Below, in pieces: positions 1 to 27,011 of a stretch of 35,261 bases of DNA. Source of the DNA: Alphaproteobacteria bacterium (lineage in GTDB: Bacteria > Pseudomonadota > Alphaproteobacteria > Geminicoccales > Geminicoccaceae); the NCBI GenBank assembly GCA_009908425.1, contig JAAAPF010000020.1, forward strand, positions 1-35,261, written 5' to 3'. The translations under genes were made by a program, and so were the position numbers. The notes below the pieces were generated by a model, which had not been told where the DNA came from, did not search any database, and saw nothing but the letters and a program-made list of their open reading frames with translations. The stretch's first letter is position 1, and every line of letters begins with the position of its first letter.

Positions 1-1
1 C

Positions 2-73
2 GATGTCGACGAGGCCGAGGCGACCCTCGCGCTCCTGCGCGAGCTGGCGGAGACGGCCGAGGCGGCGCGGTGA
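2..73 (+). CDS. hypC: HypC/HupF hydrogenase maturation chaperone, C-terminal end only
   Basis: Only the last 23 codons are in the window; the 5' part lies before base 1. The residues seen (DVDEAEATLALLRELAETAE, then AAR and stop) match the acidic, leucine-rich C-terminal helix of HypC. The TGA at 71-73 overlaps the GTG of hypD at 70-72. HypC pairs with HypD and carries the Fe(CN)2CO precursor to the large subunit of [NiFe]-hydrogenases. The call rests mainly on this overlap and the order hypC-hypD-hypE, because the catalytic N-terminal Cys is out of view. Confidence 0.75.
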   Translation, partial: DVDEAEATLALLRELAETAEAAR

Positions 74-1179
74 AATACGTCGACGACTTCCGCGACGGCC
101 ACCTCGCCCGCGCGCTTAGTGACCGCATCGCCGACGAGGTCGACCCGGCTCGGACCTACCGCCTGATGGAGTTCTGCGGCGGGCACACCCACGCCATCTT
201 CCGCCACGGCCTCGCCGACCTGTTGCCGGCGAACGTCGAGATGGTGCACGGCCCGGGCTGTCCCGTCTGCGTGCTGCCGATGGGCCGCGTCGACATGGCG
301 ATCGACCTCGCGATGCGTCCCGAGGTGGTGCTGTGCTCCTACGGCGATATGCTGCGCGTACCCGGCGCGCACCGCCGCTCGCTCTTGCGGGCCAAGGCCG
401 ACGGGGCCGACGTCCGCATGGTCTACTCCGCCGCCGACGCCCTCGCCGTCGCGCGCGCCGAGCCCGACCGCGAGGTCGTCTTCTTCGCCATCGGCTTCGA
501 GACGACGACGCCGCCGACGGCGGTGGCGCTGGCCGAGGCGATCGACGACGGCGTCTCGAACTTCCGCGTCTTCTGCAATCACGTGCTGACGCCGCCGGCG
601 ATCCGGGGGATCCTCGATACCCCGGAAGGGACCGCCATCGACGGCGTGCTGGGGCCGTCGCACGTCAGCGTCGTCATCGGCTCGGAGCCTTACGGTTTCG
701 TCGCGGCCGAGCACGGCGTGCCGGTGGTCATCGCCGGCTTCGAGCCGCTCGACGTCCTGCAGTCGATTTTGATGCTGATCCGCCAGCTCGAGGCCGGGCG
801 CGCCGCGGTGGAGACCCAGTACACCCGCGCCGTCACCCCCGGCGGCAACGCCAAGGCCCGGGCACTGGTCGAGCGGCTGTTCGAGCGCCGCGCGGCCTTC
901 GAGTGGCGCGGGCTCGGCGCGATCCCGCAGAGCGCGCTCGGCCTGCGCGCCGAGTTCGCCGCCTTCGACGCCGAGCGCCGCTACGATCTCGCCGAACGGC
1001 CGGTGCGCGAGAACCGGGCGTGCCGCTGCCCCGACGTCCTGCGCGGCGCCGCCAAACCGCCCGACTGCGCGCTCTTCGGCGGGGTGTGCACCCCCGAGAA
1101 CCCCGTCGGCGCGTGCATGGTCTCCGCCGAGGGCGCGTGCGCCGCCTATTGGGCCTACCGCCGCCATCTCGCGGCATGA
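70..1179 (+). CDS. hypD: HypD, [NiFe]-hydrogenase Fe-cyanide assembly protein
   Basis: This 369-residue protein has the usual HypD length. HypD is the Fe-S scaffold on which, with HypC and HypE, the Fe(CN)2CO group of [NiFe]-hydrogenase is assembled in the cytoplasm. The sequence shows the FCGGHTH motif (C36) and the GPGCPVC motif (C64, C67), the positions used for iron binding and thiol exchange. The C-terminal part holds a cysteine cluster (C318, C320, C333, C340, C349, C357) that would carry the [4Fe-4S] cluster. The start is GTG, overlapping the hypC stop by four bases, and its stop overlaps the ATG of hypE, so translation is probably coupled. The hydrogenase structural genes are not in the window. 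Confidence 0.97.
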   Translation: MKYVDDFRDGHLARALSDRIADEVDPARTYRLMEFCGGHTHAIFRHGLADLLPANVEMVHGPGCPVCVLPMGRVDMAIDLAMRPEVVLCSYGDMLRVPGAHRRSLLRAKADGADVRMVYSAADALAVARAEPDREVVFFAIGFETTTPPTAVALAEAIDDGVSNFRVFCNHVLTPPAIRGILDTPEGTAIDGVLGPSHVSVVIGSEPYGFVAAEHGVPVVIAGFEPLDVLQSILMLIRQLEAGRAAVETQYTRAVTPGGNAKARALVERLFERRAAFEWRGLGAIPQSALGLRAEFAAFDAERRYDLAERPVRENRACRCPDVLRGAAKPPDCALFGGVCTPENPVGACMVSAEGACAAYWAYRRHLAA

Positions 1180-19274: not shown

Positions 19275-20372
19275 TCAGTCCGATCCCGCCTTCTTGAGCA
19301 CGCTTTTGGGGCCCAGCGGATGGTCGGCGTGGGGGTAGGGGGCGTGGTGGTGATGGGGATGGCCGTCGCCGTGCCCGTGGTCGTGGTCGTGATGATGCTG
19401 TTGGTGGTCGTGGTCGGCCGTGACCCGGCAGGCGCCGGTGCAGAAGTCGTCGCACAAGGGGCAGTCGGCGACGTTGGAGCCCGGCGCCGAGGCGCCCTGA
19501 CCCTCGACGTGGTGGTGGTGGCTCGCCTGCGGCGCGCCGAGGTCGTGCTCGAAGCCGAGGACCTGCGCGCGGTACTTGCACATCGCGCAGTTCATGACGT
19601 TCTGACCCTCGAGGATCTCGATGACCCGCTCGGCGAAGGTGTCGACCACGAGCGGATGGTCGTTGAGGTAGCCCGCCTTGACGAACTGGATCTCGGGATT
19701 GGCGGCGGCGACGCGGTCGGTGAAGCCGTAGATCCGATCGATCAGGATGCCGGTGAACAGGAAATAGGGAAAGACGACGACCCGCTTGTAGCCGAGCCGG
19801 GCGACGTGCTCGAGGCAGGGCTCGACCAGGGGAAAGGTCACGCCCGAGAAGCCGGTTTCGCACCAGCCGAAGCCCATGCCCTCCCACAGCATGCGCGCGA
19901 TCTTGGCGACGTTGGAATTGGCGTCGGGATCGGAGGCGCCGCGGCCGATCACGACGAGGCAGACCTCGTGGTTGGGGAGCTCGCCGTGCTCGGCGTCGGC
20001 GCGGTCGAGCGCTTGCTGGACGCGATCGGCGGCCGCCTTGATCATCTTGGGATCGACCCCGAGCTCGCGGCCGTAGTCGACCTTGAGGCCGTGCTCGGCT
20101 TGGTAGGTGTTGAGGACCGAGGGGATGTCGTTCTTGGCGTGGCCGGCGGCGAACAGCATCCCGGGGACGGCGAGGATGCGCTCGGCACCGGCCTCGCGCA
20201 GGCGGTCGAGGCCGACGCGCAGCACCGGGTCGGCGAACTCGAGATAGCCGTGCTGGACGGGCCAGTCCGGAAAGCGTTCGCGTAAGCGGTCGGCGACCAC
20301 CGCGAACTCGCGCACCGCGGCCTCGGACCGCGAGCCGTGGCCGCACAGCATCACGCCCATCGGTTGGTCCAT
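19275..20372 (-). CDS. cbiX: Sirohydrochlorin cobaltochelatase CbiX, long form with metal-rich tail
   Basis: This 365-residue chelatase puts cobalt into sirohydrochlorin in cobalamin synthesis. It has two tandem CbiX/class II chelatase half-domains. The first carries the metal histidines H12 (GHGSR) and H78 (GHAKND). The second half includes GRGASDPDAN, FSGVTFPLVEP and VVVFPYFLFTGILIDRI. After the core come MNCAMC (C262, C265), the MXCXXC motif that carries a Fe-S cluster in Bacillus megaterium CbiX, then a His-rich stretch, a second Cys group (C304, C307, C311, C315) and a tail with about 15 more His. No cobalamin riboswitch is visible in the 109 bases upstream, and no other cob/cbi gene is adjacent. 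Confidence 0.93.
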   Translation of the reverse strand: MDQPMGVMLCGHGSRSEAAVREFAVVADRLRERFPDWPVQHGYLEFADPVLRVGLDRLREAGAERILAVPGMLFAAGHAKNDIPSVLNTYQAEHGLKVDYGRELGVDPKMIKAAADRVQQALDRADAEHGELPNHEVCLVVIGRGASDPDANSNVAKIARMLWEGMGFGWCETGFSGVTFPLVEPCLEHVARLGYKRVVVFPYFLFTGILIDRIYGFTDRVAAANPEIQFVKAGYLNDHPLVVDTFAERVIEILEGQNVMNCAMCKYRAQVLGFEHDLGAPQASHHHHVEGQGASAPGSNVADCPLCDDFCTGACRVTADHDHQQHHHDHDHGHGDGHPHHHHAPYPHADHPLGPKSVLKKAGSD

Positions 20373-20481: not shown

Positions 20482-21384
20482 TCAAGCGTTCTCGGAGACC
20501 AGCGTCTCCGGTTCGTCGACGATGCGGCGCCGCAGGTTGGCGCGGGTTTCCGATTCCGGCAGGGGCCGGAACGTCGACAGCCCGTCCTGGACCCGGGTCT
20601 CGATCACGTTGAACACGGTGTCGAAATCGACGTCGGTGCGATCCTCCGCGAAGGCGTAGACCAGCGAGAGGTCGCACAGCGAATTGACCAACCGCGGCAG
20701 CCCCCGCGCGAAATAATGCACGGTGGCGAGCGCCACCGAGTCGAAAACGTCGGGGTCACCGCCGGCCGTCTCGAGCCGGTGGCGGACGTAGGAGGCGGTG
20801 TCCTCGCGGTCCAACGGCTTGAGATGATAGTCGATGGAGATGCGCTGAACGAACTGTCGCAGCGAGTTGTTGCCGAGCAACTGGCGCAGCTCGGGCTGAC
20901 CGACCAGGATCAACTGGAGCAGGTGATCCGATTCGGCGTTGATGTTGGAGAGCATGCGCAGCTGTTCGAGCGCCTCGCGCCCCAGGTTCTGCGCCTCGTC
21001 GACGATCAGAACGACCCGCTGACCGTGGGCGTAGCGCTCGATCAGAAAGTCGGTGAAGATCTGATGCTGGGTGACCGCGTCCTTGTCGGTGTAGTCGAGG
21101 TCGAACGCCAGCATGATCCACTTCATCAACTCGCCGAAGGAGCTGTGCGTGTTGGTGACCAAGCCGATCAGCACGTGGTTGTCGACGGAACGCAGGAGGT
21201 GGCGGAGGAGCGTGGTCTTGCCGGTGCCGACCTCGCCGGTGAGGACGACGTAGCCGGTCTGTTCGGCCAGGCCGTATTCCAGCATGTGCATCGCCATCGC
21301 GTGCGTGCGACCGGCGTAGAGGAAACGCGGGTCGGGCAGCAGCGAAAACGGCTTCTCGTGCAAGCCGAAGTGGGCTTCGTACAC
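20482..21384 (-). CDS. ExeA-like AAA ATPase of exopolysaccharide/exosortase-locus type
   Basis: This 300-residue ATPase opens with MYEAHFGLHEKPFSLLPDPR, close to the ATPase common in PEP-CTERM/XrtA exopolysaccharide loci and to GspA/ExeA. Walker A is GEVGTGKT (50-57) and Walker B is VVLIVDEAQN (124-133). Sensor-like GQPELRQLL, the arginine block VQRISIDYHLKPL and RGLPRLVNSLCDLSL are further AAA/ExeA marks. There is no C-terminal membrane segment or peptidoglycan-binding domain, unlike ExeA proper. It lies 32 bases downstream of the tyrosine autokinase gene on the same strand, which supports a polysaccharide role. The exact function in these loci is not known. Confidence 0.88.
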   Translation of the reverse strand: MYEAHFGLHEKPFSLLPDPRFLYAGRTHAMAMHMLEYGLAEQTGYVVLTGEVGTGKTTLLRHLLRSVDNHVLIGLVTNTHSSFGELMKWIMLAFDLDYTDKDAVTQHQIFTDFLIERYAHGQRVVLIVDEAQNLGREALEQLRMLSNINAESDHLLQLILVGQPELRQLLGNNSLRQFVQRISIDYHLKPLDREDTASYVRHRLETAGGDPDVFDSVALATVHYFARGLPRLVNSLCDLSLVYAFAEDRTDVDFDTVFNVIETRVQDGLSTFRPLPESETRANLRRRIVDEPETLVSENA

Positions 21385-21416
21385 GGTGGCGCTCCTCGAC
21401 GAACGACGATGGCGGC

Positions 21417-22253
21417 TCAGCGGTAACCGTAGTAGGTACTGCCTTCACTCTCGACGACCCGGTTGAGCACGCTGCCGAGATATTTGGCCTCGTCGAGATA
21501 TTCGGCGCTGCGTTCGACGTCGTCGCGACTGGTCCGTCCCTGCTCGACCACCAGCAGACAGCCGTCGACATAGCCTTGCACCACGAGCGGCTCGTCGGTC
21601 AGCAACAACGGGGGGCAGTCGATCACCAGCTTGGCGGACGGCACGCCGTTGGCGAGGTTCTGGATCAGCGTCCGCGCCGCTTGCGAGGCCACGATCTCGG
21701 AGGCGTGCTCGCTCTTGCGGGCCTGCGGCAGGACGTAGAGTTGGCTGTCGGCGATGCGGACCAGGACCTCTTCGACGGTCGCACGCCCCTCGATGACGTC
21801 GGTGAGCGAGACCTCGGGCTCAAGGCCGAAGGTGCGGTGAACGCTCGGGCGGCGGAAGTCCATGTCCAACAGGAAGGTCGGCGCCGCGGTCTGATGGGCG
21901 ATGCCGAAGGCCAGGTTGCACGCCACCAGCGTCTTGCCCTCGCCGTCGCGCGCGCTCACGACCATCAGGCTCCGCCCGCCCAGCGTCTGCAGTCGCAGCA
22001 TCGCCTGGGTGCGCAGTTTGCGGAAGACGTCGCTGCGGACGTCGTCGGTCGCACCCGCGAGAATCCGGTTCTCGCGCAGATGCTGCGTCGAGGGCTCGAA
22101 CACGCGTGCTTGTTGCAGGGCGGCGGCGAGACCGCCGCTAGCCCCCGCCGTGTTCGCCGACGGCCGGCTCGGCCTCGCCGGGGCGTCGACTTGGCCGCCC
22201 AGGCTGGCGCGCTGCTGGCGCGCGCGTTCGACGGCTTGCTGAATTTTTTCCAC
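21417..22253 (-). CDS. CpsD/CapB-family tyrosine autokinase
   Basis: This 278-residue cytoplasmic BY-kinase starts MEKIQQAVERARQQRA, as in exosortase-locus tyrosine kinases. Walker A is SARDGEGKT (100-108), Walker A' is FLLDMDFRRP (127-136) and Walker B is LVIDCPP (209-215). The C-terminus is STYYGYR with three Tyr (274, 275, 277), the likely autophosphorylation cluster. There is no Wzz membrane domain, so a separate chain-length protein must exist elsewhere. The GTG at 22253 is chosen because AGGAG stands seven bases before it and it gives the family N-terminus; the open frame upstream has no family likeness. It probably controls export or length of a polysaccharide. Confidence 0.9.
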   Translation of the reverse strand: MEKIQQAVERARQQRASLGGQVDAPARPSRPSANTAGASGGLAAALQQARVFEPSTQHLRENRILAGATDDVRSDVFRKLRTQAMLRLQTLGGRSLMVVSARDGEGKTLVACNLAFGIAHQTAAPTFLLDMDFRRPSVHRTFGLEPEVSLTDVIEGRATVEEVLVRIADSQLYVLPQARKSEHASEIVASQAARTLIQNLANGVPSAKLVIDCPPLLLTDEPLVVQGYVDGCLLVVEQGRTSRDDVERSAEYLDEAKYLGSVLNRVVESEGSTYYGYR

Positions 22254-22553
22254 CGCGTCACTCCTGGCGCGTCGGGCCTCCACCTGGTCTCGGCGCCGCC
22301 GCGTCCTGCGATCGCCAACCCGTTCCACGTCCGCCCGCCGCCGCGGCGCCCGGGTGTACCGAGGGCCCGGGGCGCCGACGCGACGAAGCAATGCACCGCA
22401 ACAATGGTGCATGAGCCCTATGTTGCTGCGCAAGTGTTCGTTTTTTCTTCGCGCTTTGGCAACCCGCTCCGCCCCACAGGCTCATCGGTGTACGCCGATG
22501 GTTTCGAATGGCGGCCGGAGGTTCCTGTGATGCGGGCCGGCGGTGTCGCGAAT
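22254..22553. other. 300-base intergenic region with two hairpins
   Basis: No credible gene is seen between the kinase and the CoA-transferase, both read leftward. ATGCACC (22391-22397) and GGTGCAT (22406-22412) form a perfect seven-base stem with an eight-base loop. CATCGG and CCGATG (near 22484-22501) form a six-base stem. A T-rich run (GTTTTTTC, near 22440) is unusual for this GC-rich DNA. The region probably holds the end of the CoA-transferase transcript and the promoter and leader of the kinase gene. Confidence 0.5.
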
Positions 22554-23780
22554 TCAGTCCTCCTTGGGGCCGGCGACCACGCCGCCGTCGTGCAGTCGTC
22601 CGACCTCGCCCTCGCTCATCCCGAGCGTCTCCAAGAGGATCTCGTCGGTGTGCTCGCCCAGACGCGGGGCGCGTCGCACCGGCAAGCGCGGGTGCTCGCC
22701 GAACTGTAGCGGCGAGCCGGGCATCAGATAGTCGCCGATCCCCGGCTGGTTGACGTTGGCGAACATGTCGTTCGCAGGCGAGCAGTCCGGGTCGTGCTCG
22801 GCCATCTCGCGCACGGTGTGGTAGGGCGCCCAGGTGATGCCGGCCTCGTTGAAGATCTTGCGGATCTCCGCCAGCATCCGGGTGGCGAACCAGGGCTCGA
22901 AAATCCGCGCGATCTCCCGCCGGGCACGGTAGCGGTCGCCCTCTTTCGAAAAGTCGAGGCCCAATCGTTGAGCCAGTTCCTCGAGCTGGGGGGCGACCCC
23001 GGTGACCTTGACCAGACTCGACCACTGACCCTTGGTCAACCCGACCACCATCAACCGCTTGCCGTCGAGCGTGCCGAAATCGCGGCCGAAGGAACCGTAG
23101 AGGTAGTTGCCGTCGCGCGGGCGGTCGATATCGTTGACGGTCACCTCGGCGAGGATGCCGAGATTGGCGACCATGGCGAGCGCGACGTCCTTCAGCGCCA
23201 GCTTGACCAGCTGGCCCCGGCCGGTGAGCCGGCGGTGGCGCTCGGCCGCCAACAGGCCCATCGCCGCCATCTGCCCGGAAATCAGGTCCCACGCGGGCAG
23301 GACGTGGTTCACCGGGCGTGGAAACACGTTCGGGCCGGTCATGTAGGGCATGCCGACCTGCGGGTTGACGGTGTAGTCGACCTCCGAGGTGCCGTCGGCG
23401 CGGCCGGTGAGGTTGACCATCACCAGGTCCTCGCGCTCCTTCTTCAGCGCCTCGTAGCCCAGCCAGCCCCGGGCCGGAAAGTTGGTGAGGAACAGCCCGC
23501 CCTCGTCGCCGGGCGCGGCGATCAGCCGGGTCAGCAACTCCTGGCCCTCGGGTCGCTTGAAATCGACCGCGATCGAGCGCTTGCCCTTGTTGAGCCCGGC
23601 CCAGAACAGGCTGTGCTTGCCGTCGAGGGTGACCGGCCAGCGCAGATAGTCGAGGCCGCCACCGATCGGATCGAAGCGGATCACGTCCGCTCCCATCTGG
23701 GCGAGCGTCATGCCACCCAACGGCATGGCCACGAACGCCGAGCCCTCGACGACGCGCAAACCCGACAAGATGCCCTGCAT
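22554..23780 (-). CDS. mct: CaiB/BaiF CoA-transferase, mesaconyl-CoA C1-C4 transferase-like
   Basis: This 408-residue class III CoA-transferase closely resembles the Chloroflexus mesaconyl-C1-CoA C4-CoA transferase (2-methylfumaryl-CoA isomerase) as I recall it. Shared blocks are GILSGLRVVEGSAFVAMPLG, DVIRFDPIGGGLDYLRWPVT, HSLFWAGLNKGKRSIAVDF, FLTNFPARGWLGYE, SEVDYTVNPQVGMPYMTGP and PRLGEHTDEILLETLGMSE. Mct moves CoA within mesaconate from C1 to C4 in glyoxylate/propionyl-CoA co-assimilation. The ATG at 23780 has AGGAG eight bases upstream; residues upstream in frame do not look like the family. A Meh-like hydratase gene lies nearby on the same strand beyond an unrelated gene. Another CoA-transfer role is possible, since assignment is by likeness only. 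Confidence 0.85.
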   Translation of the reverse strand: MQGILSGLRVVEGSAFVAMPLGGMTLAQMGADVIRFDPIGGGLDYLRWPVTLDGKHSLFWAGLNKGKRSIAVDFKRPEGQELLTRLIAAPGDEGGLFLTNFPARGWLGYEALKKEREDLVMVNLTGRADGTSEVDYTVNPQVGMPYMTGPNVFPRPVNHVLPAWDLISGQMAAMGLLAAERHRRLTGRGQLVKLALKDVALAMVANLGILAEVTVNDIDRPRDGNYLYGSFGRDFGTLDGKRLMVVGLTKGQWSSLVKVTGVAPQLEELAQRLGLDFSKEGDRYRARREIARIFEPWFATRMLAEIRKIFNEAGITWAPYHTVREMAEHDPDCSPANDMFANVNQPGIGDYLMPGSPLQFGEHPRLPVRRAPRLGEHTDEILLETLGMSEGEVGRLHDGGVVAGPKED

Positions 23781-23812
23781 CCGCGATCTCCTGACACGAT
23801 TTCTGCGACACT

Positions 23813-23840
23813 TTAGTACGAGCGGGGGCGGGCCGGGCAA
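23813..23840 (-). promoter_or_regulatory. Possible promoter of the CoA-transferase gene
   Basis: On the minus strand TTGCCC (23840-23835) is followed after 16 bases by TACTAA (23818-23813). The CoA-transferase ATG is 32 bases further. The -35 matches four of six bases and the -10 three of six. Confidence 0.35.
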
Positions 23841-23940
23841 GAGCGGAACCACCCGCCGCTACCGTGATCGCGCTCCCGTCGACGGCCCCGCGATGCTATA
23901 CGAATACCATCTGCGGTCCAACCGCGGTCGGGAGGTCGAC

Positions 23941-24525
23941 ATGCAAACACCGGTGGAACTGGTTTTCGACGACGTCGATTCGGCGCCCGCCGTCGAACAA
24001 CGGGTGCGCAAACGGGTGCGCCGTCTGGAGCGCTTCTACGCCGGCATCACCAGCTGCCACGTCGCGCTGAGCACGCCGCACCGCCACCAGCGCAAGGGCC
24101 GCCATTGGAGCGTGCGGATCGAGCTGCGGGTACCGGGAACCGAGCTCGTCGCCTCGCGCGAGCCCGGCGACGTCGAGGCGCACGAAGACCTGTTGGTCGC
24201 CATCCGCGACGCTTTCGACGCCATGGAGCGCGAGCTCCAGGCCTGGCACGCCAAGGTTCGAGGCGACGTCAAGATCCACGTCCCGCCGCCCCAGGGCCGC
24301 ATCCGGGAACTCGACCGGCAACGCGGCTTCGGCCAGATCGCGATGACCGACGGCCGGCTGGTCTATTTCCACCGCAACAGTGTGGTCCAGCCCGACTTCG
24401 ACGCCCTGCAGCCGGGCGACCCGGTGGAGGTGGTGGTCCAAGCCAAGGAGAGCGACCTCGGCCCGCAGGCCAGCACCGTCCGGCGCATCGGCGCCCTCGA
24501 ATTCGTGCCCGAGCCGCAAGCCTGA
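23941..24525 (+). CDS. HPF/RaiA-like ribosome-associated protein fused to a cold-shock domain
   Basis: This 194-residue protein has two parts. Residues 1-105 are an S30AE/HPF domain (VELVFDDVDSAPAVEQRVRK to AFDAMERELQAW) of the type that binds the ribosomal A/P sites during dormancy. Residues 118-185 form a cold-shock-like OB domain, with RGFGQIAM standing for the RNP1 motif and VYFHRNSV for RNP2. The linker around 108-117 has a proline run. GGAGG precedes the ATG by five bases, and the open frame upstream overlaps the CoA-transferase promoter and is not used. The long-HPF C-terminal dimer domain is absent. Ribosome hibernation or RNA-chaperone activity under stress is inferred from the domains. 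Confidence 0.9.
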   Translation: MQTPVELVFDDVDSAPAVEQRVRKRVRRLERFYAGITSCHVALSTPHRHQRKGRHWSVRIELRVPGTELVASREPGDVEAHEDLLVAIRDAFDAMERELQAWHAKVRGDVKIHVPPPQGRIRELDRQRGFGQIAMTDGRLVYFHRNSVVQPDFDALQPGDPVEVVVQAKESDLGPQASTVRRIGALEFVPEPQA

Positions 24526-24571
24526 GCGGGCGGCGCCGTCGCCGCGGCCGGCGGTGTGCCGGGGGCCCGCC

Positions 24572-25444
24572 TCAATCGGCGCCGGCGAAGCCGACCTCGG
24601 CGGTCATCGCGACCTGGCCGTCGGCTCGGACCGCGCGGAGCTGGTAGCCCGCACCGTCGGCGTCGGCGACGAAGCGCAGCGGCTGGTTGACGAAGGCCGG
24701 TCGCCGCGCCCGGAAGCTGAAGCGATCGGCGTTGCGGCCCCGGGTCCGCATGGCGAGGTCGAGCAGCTTGGAGGCGATGAAGGGACCGTGGACCACCAAT
24801 GCGGGATAGCCCTCGACCCCGGTGGCGTAGGGCTGATCGTAGTGGATGCGGTGGCCGTTGAAGGTCACCGCCGAGAAGCGGAACAGGTCGACCTCGTCGG
24901 GGGTGAAGTCTTCCATGGTCTCCCCGCTCGGCAGCTCGCTCGGCGGCACCGGCGCCGGCAGCGGTACCGCCCCGCCGGGCTCGAGATAGACGATGGTCTG
25001 GCGTTCCTCGAGCACCGGCGCGCCCTCCTGGGCGAAGAGCATCACCAGCTCGACGAAGATCAAGTCGCCCTGCGCGCCCGCCTTGCGCTCGACGCTCTCG
25101 ATCGTGGTCGTCTTGGTGGTCTCGACCCCGAGCCGGACGTCGCCGAGGCGCTGCATCGTGCCGCCCGCGAACATGCGCCGCTCGAGGCGGATCGCCGGGA
25201 TGAAACCGCCGCGCACGGGATGCCCGTCGGGGCCGGTCGTGCCCTTGGTGACGACGGGCAGAAAGAAGCCCCATTGCCGCCCGAGCGCCAGGGTGTCGCG
25301 GGTGGGATAGTGGACGTCGCCGAGCGTGCTCGAGAACCGGGCCGCGATCTCCGGCGCGAGCGTAGCCGTCTCCTCCATGCGGCGGCCCACCGCCGCCTCG
25401 TAATGGGCGATCTCCTCCGCCGTCAGCGCCGTCTCCGCCGTCAT
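24572..25444 (-). CDS. HTD2/MaoC-type hydratase, mesaconyl-C4-CoA hydratase-like
   Basis: This 290-residue protein is of the COG3777 hot-dog dehydratase group. The N-terminal FAS1-like dehydratase half runs to about residue 150 (LGRQWGFFLPV, GGFIPAIRLERRMFAGGTMQ). The C-terminal half carries FRFSAVTFNGHRIHYDQPYA and PALVVHGPF, where the Asp/His pair near HRIHYDQPYA is the usual catalytic region. Relatives include mesaconyl-C4-CoA hydratase (Meh), itaconyl-CoA hydratase and 3-hydroxyacyl-thioester dehydratases. The nearby Mct-like gene favours Meh, which makes citramalyl-CoA. The ATG at 25444 starts the family N-terminus (MTAETALTAEEI); the open frame further upstream runs into the promoter region of the divergent reductase gene. 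No gene symbol is given because other acyl-CoA substrates remain possible. Confidence 0.82.
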   Translation of the reverse strand: MTAETALTAEEIAHYEAAVGRRMEETATLAPEIAARFSSTLGDVHYPTRDTLALGRQWGFFLPVVTKGTTGPDGHPVRGGFIPAIRLERRMFAGGTMQRLGDVRLGVETTKTTTIESVERKAGAQGDLIFVELVMLFAQEGAPVLEERQTIVYLEPGGAVPLPAPVPPSELPSGETMEDFTPDEVDLFRFSAVTFNGHRIHYDQPYATGVEGYPALVVHGPFIASKLLDLAMRTRGRNADRFSFRARRPAFVNQPLRFVADADGAGYQLRAVRADGQVAMTAEVGFAGAD

Positions 25445-25625: not shown

Positions 25626-27011
25626 ATGGCCTTCGACTTCGATCTCTTCGTCATCGGTGCCGGTTCCGGCGGGGTGCGCGCCGCCCGGATCGCGGCGGCC
25701 CACGGGGCGCGGGTGGCGATCGCCGAGCGTCAGTACCTCGGCGGCACCTGCGTCAACGTCGGCTGCGTGCCGAAGAAGCTGATGACCTTCGCGGCCTCCT
25801 ACGCTCACCATCTGGAGGACGCCGCCGGCTTCGGCTGGCAGGTCGGCGACGCCCGCCACGACTGGAGCACGCTGATCCGCAACAAGGACCGTGAGATCGA
25901 CCGCTTGAACCGGACCTACGCGCGGCTGTTGGAGGGGCCCGGGGCGCGCGTCTTCTGGGGCGACGCGGTGATCGCGGGGCCGAACACGGTGCGCATCGGT
26001 GCGGAGACCGTCACCGCCGCGAAGATCCTGGTCGCGACCGGCGGTCGGCCCGTTTTACCGGAGGTTCCCGGCGCTAGGGAGCACGGCATCACCTCCGACG
26101 ACGTCTTCTACCTCGAGCGGATGCCCGAGCGCGTCGTGGTCGTCGGTGCCGGCTACATCGGCATCGAGTTCGCCGGCATCTTCGCCCGTCTCGGCTCCGA
26201 GGTGACGATGGCGCACCGCGGCCGCATGATCCTCAACGACAATTTCGACCTCGACGCCCGCCGGGTCTTGCAGGACGAGCTCGAAAAGCAGGGCGTCGTC
26301 TACGCCTTCGACTGCAAGATCACCGGGGTCGAGCAGAGCGCGGGCGGGCTGTTGGTGCACCGCTCGAACTGTGCGGCGATCGAGGTCGACCAGATCCTCT
26401 TCGCCACCGGACGGGCGCCGAACACCCAGGGCCTCGGCCTCGAGGAGGTCGGCGTCGAGCTGCGTGGCAACGGGGCGGTGCACGTCGACGACGAGGACCG
26501 CACCAACGTGCCGTCGATCCACGCCATCGGCGACGTCACCGACCGCGTCCAGCTCACGCCGGTGGCCACCGCCGAGGGGCATGCCTTCGCCGACCGCCAT
26601 TTCGGGCCGGCGCGGCGCGAGGTGACGTACGACAACATCCCCACCGCCGTCTTCGCCAACCCGCCGGTGGCGCAGGTCGGCCTCACCGAAGAGCAGGCGA
26701 TCGCCCGCTTCGGCGACGACCTCGACGTCTATCAGGCCGAGTTCAAGGCGATGCGCTTCGCGCTCGCCGAGCGCGACGAGAAGACGTTGATGAAGCTGAT
26801 CGTGCAGACCTCGACCGACCGCGTGGTCGGCGCGCACATGGTCGGCCAGGACGCGCCCGAGATCATCCAGGGCTTCGCCGTCGCGGTGAAGATGGGCGCC
26901 ACCAAGGCCGACTTCGACGCCACCATCGGCATCCATCCAACCTCCGCGGAGGAGTTCGTCACCCTGCGCACCCGCCGTCCGCCGCGCACCGCCGAGGCCG
27001 CCGCCGGCTGA
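25626..27011 (+). CDS. gor: Glutathione reductase
   Basis: This 461-residue FAD disulfide oxidoreductase reduces glutathione disulfide with NADPH. It has the FAD motif VIGAGSGGVRAARIAA (9-24), the redox pair C42/C47 in GGTCVNVGCVPKK, the NAD(P)-binding GAGYIGIEFAGIFARLGSEV followed by HR in TMAHRGRM, the second FAD motif IHAIGDVTDR and the active-site HPTSAEE near the end. The spacing and HPTSAEEFVTLR are typical of glutathione reductase rather than lipoamide or mercuric reductase. AGAGGAAAG lies just before the ATG at 25626. The gene diverges from the hydratase gene and is monocistronic. With glyoxalase I it indicates glutathione use. Confidence 0.95.
   Translation: MAFDFDLFVIGAGSGGVRAARIAAAHGARVAIAERQYLGGTCVNVGCVPKKLMTFAASYAHHLEDAAGFGWQVGDARHDWSTLIRNKDREIDRLNRTYARLLEGPGARVFWGDAVIAGPNTVRIGAETVTAAKILVATGGRPVLPEVPGAREHGITSDDVFYLERMPERVVVVGAGYIGIEFAGIFARLGSEVTMAHRGRMILNDNFDLDARRVLQDELEKQGVVYAFDCKITGVEQSAGGLLVHRSNCAAIEVDQILFATGRAPNTQGLGLEEVGVELRGNGAVHVDDEDRTNVPSIHAIGDVTDRVQLTPVATAEGHAFADRHFGPARREVTYDNIPTAVFANPPVAQVGLTEEQAIARFGDDLDVYQAEFKAMRFALAERDEKTLMKLIVQTSTDRVVGAHMVGQDAPEIIQGFAVAVKMGATKADFDATIGIHPTSAEEFVTLRTRRPPRTAEAAAG

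Follow-up and report, generated by a model that had tools for sequence, protein, structure and literature searches.

We analyzed a window of 35,261 nucleotides, the whole of the stretch considered here, from a Geminicoccaceae MAG (G000; 3.36 Mb, 356 contigs, 94% complete, 4.2% contamination), and surveyed this genome by targeted searches for pathway genes. Comparisons were made with 31 Geminicoccaceae family genomes, with 385 sampled Alphaproteobacteria genomes and, at the closest range, with G011, which belongs to the same genus as G000. The features of the window that matter for the argument are as follows.

22554..23780, minus strand: mct, encoding a predicted mesaconyl-CoA C1-C4 transferase of 408 aa (TIGR04253, structures 8apq/7xkg, active-site residues, tree)
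23941..24525, plus strand: HPF/YfiA-like and cold-shock-domain gene, outside the pathway (PF02482, PF00313)
24572..25444, minus strand: meh-like gene, encoding a COG3777-type hydratase of 290 aa, probably a mesaconyl-C4-CoA (or itaconyl-CoA) hydratase (8khg/8huc, motifs)
25626..27011, plus strand: glutathione reductase gene, divergent from meh (NF004776, 581 bits, above cut-off); the same neighbor is found in G011

The mct and meh genes lie on the same strand with a spacing of 791 bp, in agreement with the earlier note, which placed them within 1 kb of each other and described a plus-strand gene between them. The product of the latter, at 23941-24525(+), combines an HPF/YfiA-like ribosome-hibernation domain (PF02482) with a cold-shock domain (PF00313), and its score against the NCBIfam yfiA model TIGR00741, 31.8 bits, is under the cut-off. 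On its other side mct is adjoined by genes for an AAA_22 ATPase and a ParA-like protein (20482-22433, minus strand), and the same pair, inverted, occurs near mct in G011 (L068:6929-8809). The contig that carries mct and meh also contains a B12-synthesis gene, encoding a cobaltochelatase of the CbiX type whose C-terminal tail is rich in His (19275-20372, minus strand). Mis-binning of the window contig is unlikely, since both this contig and the contigs with other pathway genes have same-genus counterparts in G011 at 66-89% identity.

The CoA-transferase and the hydratase

The mct open reading frame spans 22554-23852(-), and translation likely starts from the ATG at 23780, which is preceded by an AGGAG ribosome site. 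The product exceeds the cut-off of the NCBIfam equivalog TIGR04253 (726.4 bits, cut-off 725, E 9e-219) and is 73% identical to Chloroflexus Mct. Its best PDB matches are 7xkg and 8apq (E about 1e-204), structures of 2-methylfumaryl-CoA isomerase, the Mct-type enzyme of the 3-hydroxypropionate cycle. In the window protein L43, R47, N100, F101, R104, Y136 and D165 are retained together with most of the 'cork' residues, and Arg75 is replaced by Lys. These include the hallmarks of intramolecular transfer, namely the catalytic Asp165, Arg47, Tyr136 and the narrowing Leu43, described for the C. aurantiacus enzyme of 8apq (PMC9813914). SmtA and SmtB, unlike Mct, have D43 and H136 at the respective positions. 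Models of other CoA-transferases (formyl-CoA/oxalate, succinate-glutarate, succinyl-CoA:mesaconate, carnitine) give only about 36-106 bits, and these low scores together with the active-site residues rule out an oxalate or succinate CoA-transferase.

In the phylogenetic tree the window Mct forms one clade with homologs from G011, G027, G177 and G354 (support 100/99), and this clade adjoins the Mct of Chloroflexota and Accumulibacter/Propionivibrio (support of the union 100/99). A separate Mct clade comprises G003, G029 and five other alphaproteobacteria. Thus the likeness to Mct claimed from the sequence alone holds in model score, identity, key residues and clade, and the protein groups with characterized Mct and away from oxalate and succinate CoA transferases. 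The assignment of 22554-23780(-) as mct is strongly supported, with the activity predicted. Two genomes of the clade, G177 and G354, possess two Mct-family paralogs each (L135, L136), one of the bicycle type and one from a widespread lower-scoring group.

The hydratase is more difficult to place. It has zero Pfam or NCBIfam family matches and is the sole COG3777-type gene detected in G000. It matches the itaconyl-CoA hydratase structures 8huc and 8khg (E 1e-48), and shares 39-44% identity with Meh of Chloroflexus and Accumulibacter (39-40% overall, 44% over 233 aa to Chloroflexus). The motifs RxSAxTxNxHRIHYD and VHGP are retained, and are carried by Ich and further relatives as well. The likenesses of both Mct and the hydratase go beyond chance similarity. 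The structure that AlphaFold predicts for the hydratase has a mean pLDDT of 58 and is too poor for a fold search. In the tree the protein joins only its homologs from G011 (66% identity) and G027 (57% identity), and the three are set apart by a long branch; a wider grouping with bicycle Meh and four mct-adjacent Meh has support 67/90. The AU test rejects an exclusive clade with 14 bicycle Meh (p 0.012) but does not reject a grouping with 13 COG3777 proteins of the family (p 0.38). Hence the protein is clearly related to Meh and Ich by its structure matches and motifs, but the tree does not bear out the likeness to Meh proposed in the earlier note, as the protein falls outside bicycle Meh and is unseparated from itaconyl-CoA-hydratase-like relatives. 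Because it sits on a long branch of its own, we consider 24572-25444(-) a probable mesaconyl-C4-CoA hydratase, and this assignment is the weakest link of the pathway reading. Since Pseudomonas-type Ich likewise hydrates mesaconyl-C4-CoA (PMC12290011), an enzyme of either the Meh or the Ich kind would serve the pathway.

The inseparability from these 13 relatives would also suit the breakdown of C5 dicarboxylates supplied from outside, namely mesaconate, methylsuccinate or itaconate, with Mct correcting the CoA position after C1 activation and the hydratase acting as an itaconyl-CoA hydratase; the itaconate/methylsuccinate route does share mesaconyl-C4-CoA and citramalyl-CoA (PMC12290011). We regard such a role as improbable, given that the window genes have no CoA-transferase or ligase for these acids beside them, that NF038241 (MaoC type), the only Ich-named NCBIfam model seen, misses the hydratase, and that Mct belongs to the bicycle clade.

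Alternatively, the hydratase could be functionally unrelated to Mct, acting on another acyl-CoA or acyl-ACP, and lie near it by chance. Its long branch and the presence of a COG3777 homolog in 27 of the 31 family genomes, most of which lack Mct, point this way. Furthermore, the closeness of mct and meh is lost within the genus: in G011 they are located on different contigs, meh still being next to the glutathione reductase gene (synteny with L075). Against this, the subfamily of the window hydratase (57-66% identity) occurs in 3/3 family genomes with a bicycle-type Mct and in 0/28 others, although two of the three share a genus, and many other alphaproteobacteria have adjacent meh-mct pairs, a Meh-like gene adjoining mct in about ten of the loci inspected across the class. 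On balance we find a chance neighborhood rather unlikely. Adjacency of the two genes in G027 across contig ends is not claimed, as both ends bear a similar repeat. In another alphaproteobacterium, G371 (L156; C226:12336-15556 of that genome), mch, meh and mct are adjacent, and an SmtAB-like pair is encoded elsewhere.

Other pathway genes and their distribution

Beyond the window, G000 encodes the remaining enzymes of the second cycle of the 3-hydroxypropionate bicycle, the pathway genes being dispersed over five contigs. Mch (C131:8251-9306; best PDB match 4e3e) is 58-63% identical to Chloroflexus and Accumulibacter Mch encoded beside mcl. Its score against PF19315 is low (70 bits), which is no argument against the assignment, as the Chloroflexus and Accumulibacter proteins score lower still. 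Mcl (C226:9822-10808) has 41% identity to Chloroflexus Mcl, and its best PDB matches are, in order, 5ugr from Methylobacterium, 4l9y from R. sphaeroides and 4l7z from Chloroflexus, all three malyl-CoA lyases. A second CitE-like paralog is found near mch (C131:10338-11213). SmtB on C210 is 71% identical to the Chloroflexus protein, and the SmtA fragment alongside (59%) is cut by the contig end, the pair being intact in G011. Thus the full second-cycle set is encoded in G000, with the Meh-like member uncertain. C210 also contains, near smtAB, a HypE-like gene and genes for the small subunit of a NiFe hydrogenase and for a subunit of the NADH-binding 51K type, so that hydrogen oxidation by this organism is possible. 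There are two distinct HypD genes in the MAG, one in the window (1-1179, plus strand) and one on C210 (L034:2624-4000).

The same genome encodes Ccr (616 bits, cut-off 378.6) and, about 0.4 kb away, an Ecm-like mutase of the methylmalonyl-CoA-mutase family (C227), putatively Ecm and not Mcm. With these two genes present Mch and Mcl are expected anyway. Hence, although the search for mcl and mch proposed in the earlier note found both genes, and SmtAB besides, it discriminates little, because Mch and Mcl are just as much enzymes of the ethylmalonyl-CoA pathway, and hence no independent evidence for the second cycle. A joined query of Ccr, Mch, SmtB and isocitrate lyase sequences revealed nothing in G000 matching the E. 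coli isocitrate lyase. Propionyl-CoA synthase (Pcs) is a protein of about 1800 aa that includes a Ccr-like reductase part; frames of more than 700 aa in this fragmented MAG gave zero Ccr-family matches, in a search run without a positive control. An autotrophic 3-hydroxypropionate bi-cycle in G000 is not supported.

Of the 31 family genomes 26 carry Mch and 26 carry Mcl, regardless of Mct, and 24 carry Ccr, whereas Mct is present only in five. In this family, therefore, Mch and Mcl are best read as ethylmalonyl-CoA enzymes, and what is added to these is only Mct, SmtAB and the hydratase of the Meh subfamily. This bears on the proposal of the earlier note that glyoxylate and propionyl-CoA are co-assimilated as in Chloroflexus, through Mcl, Mch, Mct, Meh and again Mcl, which we consider here as a process separate from Ccr/Ecm. 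Complete sets of Mcl, Mch, Mct, the Meh-like protein and SmtAB in G000 and G011, the position of the window Mct within the bicycle-type clade, and the partial bicycles proposed elsewhere for the assimilation of organic substrates (PMC6593406; PMC9802188) agree with it. On the other side, beyond the occurrence of Mch and Mcl independent of Mct, these two enzymes normally run in the opposite direction with an active Ccr, yielding glyoxylate and propionyl-CoA. The proposal therefore survives insofar as the second-cycle genes are encoded, but Mch and Mcl say little about it and the sequence allows either direction of flux; pure co-assimilation is possible, if on the whole doubtful.

The Mct family occurs in 54 of the 385 alphaproteobacterial genomes. 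We compared its occurrence with that of Ccr, scoring six candidates per genome with the joined query described above. The broad Mct-like set showed no association (4/36 against 9/32 in controls), and the two clades nearest to the window Mct showed one (9/12, p 0.007 against controls). The latter was set aside as class-wide evidence, since the exclusion of Geminicoccaceae leaves 4/7 (p 0.19). In G003 and G029 meh and mct are side by side and Ccr and Mcl are present, and a search in which every candidate was scored detected no Mch at E 1e-60. This gene content fits a shortcut that would be fed by Ccr/Ecm, though the two MAGs are incomplete (93% and 86%).

A predicted branch from mesaconyl-CoA to pyruvate

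The Mct/Meh route and the ethylmalonyl-CoA pathway are both encoded in one genome, and thus probably join. With a probability of about 0.6, we suggest that Mct, Meh and Mcl constitute a module attached to the mesaconyl-CoA node of the ethylmalonyl-CoA pathway, which could be fed from either of two sources. Starting from what was observed, namely the genes present, the membership of the transferase in the Mct family and its active-site residues, we infer the activities, the identity of the hydratase and the flux as follows. Within mesaconyl-CoA, Mct would shift the CoA from the carboxyl group at C1 to that at C4. The COG3777-type hydratase would convert mesaconyl-C4-CoA to (S)-citramalyl-CoA, and Mcl of G000 would cleave the latter to acetyl-CoA and pyruvate. 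Mesaconyl-C1-CoA could be supplied by Ccr, Ecm and Mcd, giving overall pyruvate from acetyl-CoA and CO2, or from glyoxylate and propionyl-CoA by Mcl and Mch acting in reverse. SmtAB may form malyl-CoA and thereby provide glyoxylate. Summed from the known steps, the first supply would amount to acetyl-CoA + CO2 + 2 NADPH + oxidised ETF -> pyruvate + CoA + reduced ETF. Even an Mcl of the alphaproteobacterial type and a hydratase as divergent as this one could fill these roles, since Mcl of the R. sphaeroides type forms citramalyl-CoA reversibly (PMC3832036) and Ich has the activity noted above (PMC12290011).

Diversion of Ccr/Ecm-derived mesaconyl-C1-CoA by Mct and Meh would explain the data at least as well as co-assimilation. 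The divergent branch of the hydratase, the scattered genes and the separation of mct and meh in G011 are evidence against a joined module. More tentatively, the module may constitute a natural oxygen-tolerant route from acetyl-CoA and CO2 to pyruvate, bypassing glyoxylate, propionyl-CoA and the decarboxylation of C4 compounds, and could take the place of Mch in G003 and G029.

In the open-access literature searched, the use of Mct and Meh to leave the ethylmalonyl-CoA pathway was undescribed. Partial bicycles in proteobacteria, one alphaproteobacterial symbiont included, have been published (PMC6593406), and another paper mentions that 2-methylfumaryl-CoA isomerase was detected in Alphaproteobacteria (PMC9802188). 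Natural aerobic routes of acetyl-CoA assimilation are described as ending in C4 compounds, from which C3 units arise only with loss of CO2, and this prompted the construction of a short synthetic route (PMC11599936). If true, the natural route by which mesaconyl-CoA yields pyruvate would parallel pyruvate synthase while tolerating oxygen, and would help to explain the role of Mct in alphaproteobacteria without the autotrophic bicycle.

Comparison with known systems

The second cycle of the Chloroflexus aurantiacus bi-cycle (mch, mcl, mct, meh, smtAB) has every step encoded in G000, with identities of 73% for Mct, 58% for Mch, 71% for SmtB, 59% for the SmtA fragment and 44% over 233 aa for the Meh-like protein. 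In contrast to Chloroflexus, the genes are scattered rather than clustered, Meh is divergent, Mcl is of the alphaproteobacterial type (41%), Ccr and Ecm are present and Pcs was not seen. The partial bi-cycles of Ca. Accumulibacter, Kentron and Ca. Riegeria likewise feature proteobacterial homologs of Mct, Mch and Meh, and are read as organic-carbon assimilation; Accumulibacter and Propionivibrio retain a Chloroflexus-like cluster with its Mcl, whereas the core of G000 is a native ethylmalonyl-CoA set. Degradation of itaconate and methylsuccinate in Pseudomonas (Ich, Ccl) shares the hydratase family and the step from mesaconyl-C4-CoA to citramalyl-CoA, but the G000 genes are not surrounded by an itaconate cluster and their CoA transferase is the intramolecular Mct. 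Finally, the ethylmalonyl-CoA pathway of Rhodobacter and Methylobacterium has in common with G000 Ccr, an Ecm-like mutase, Mch and Mcl. Its usual outcome is glyoxylate and propionyl-CoA only; the Mct, Meh-like and SmtAB proteins that G000 adds to it would permit an exit to pyruvate.
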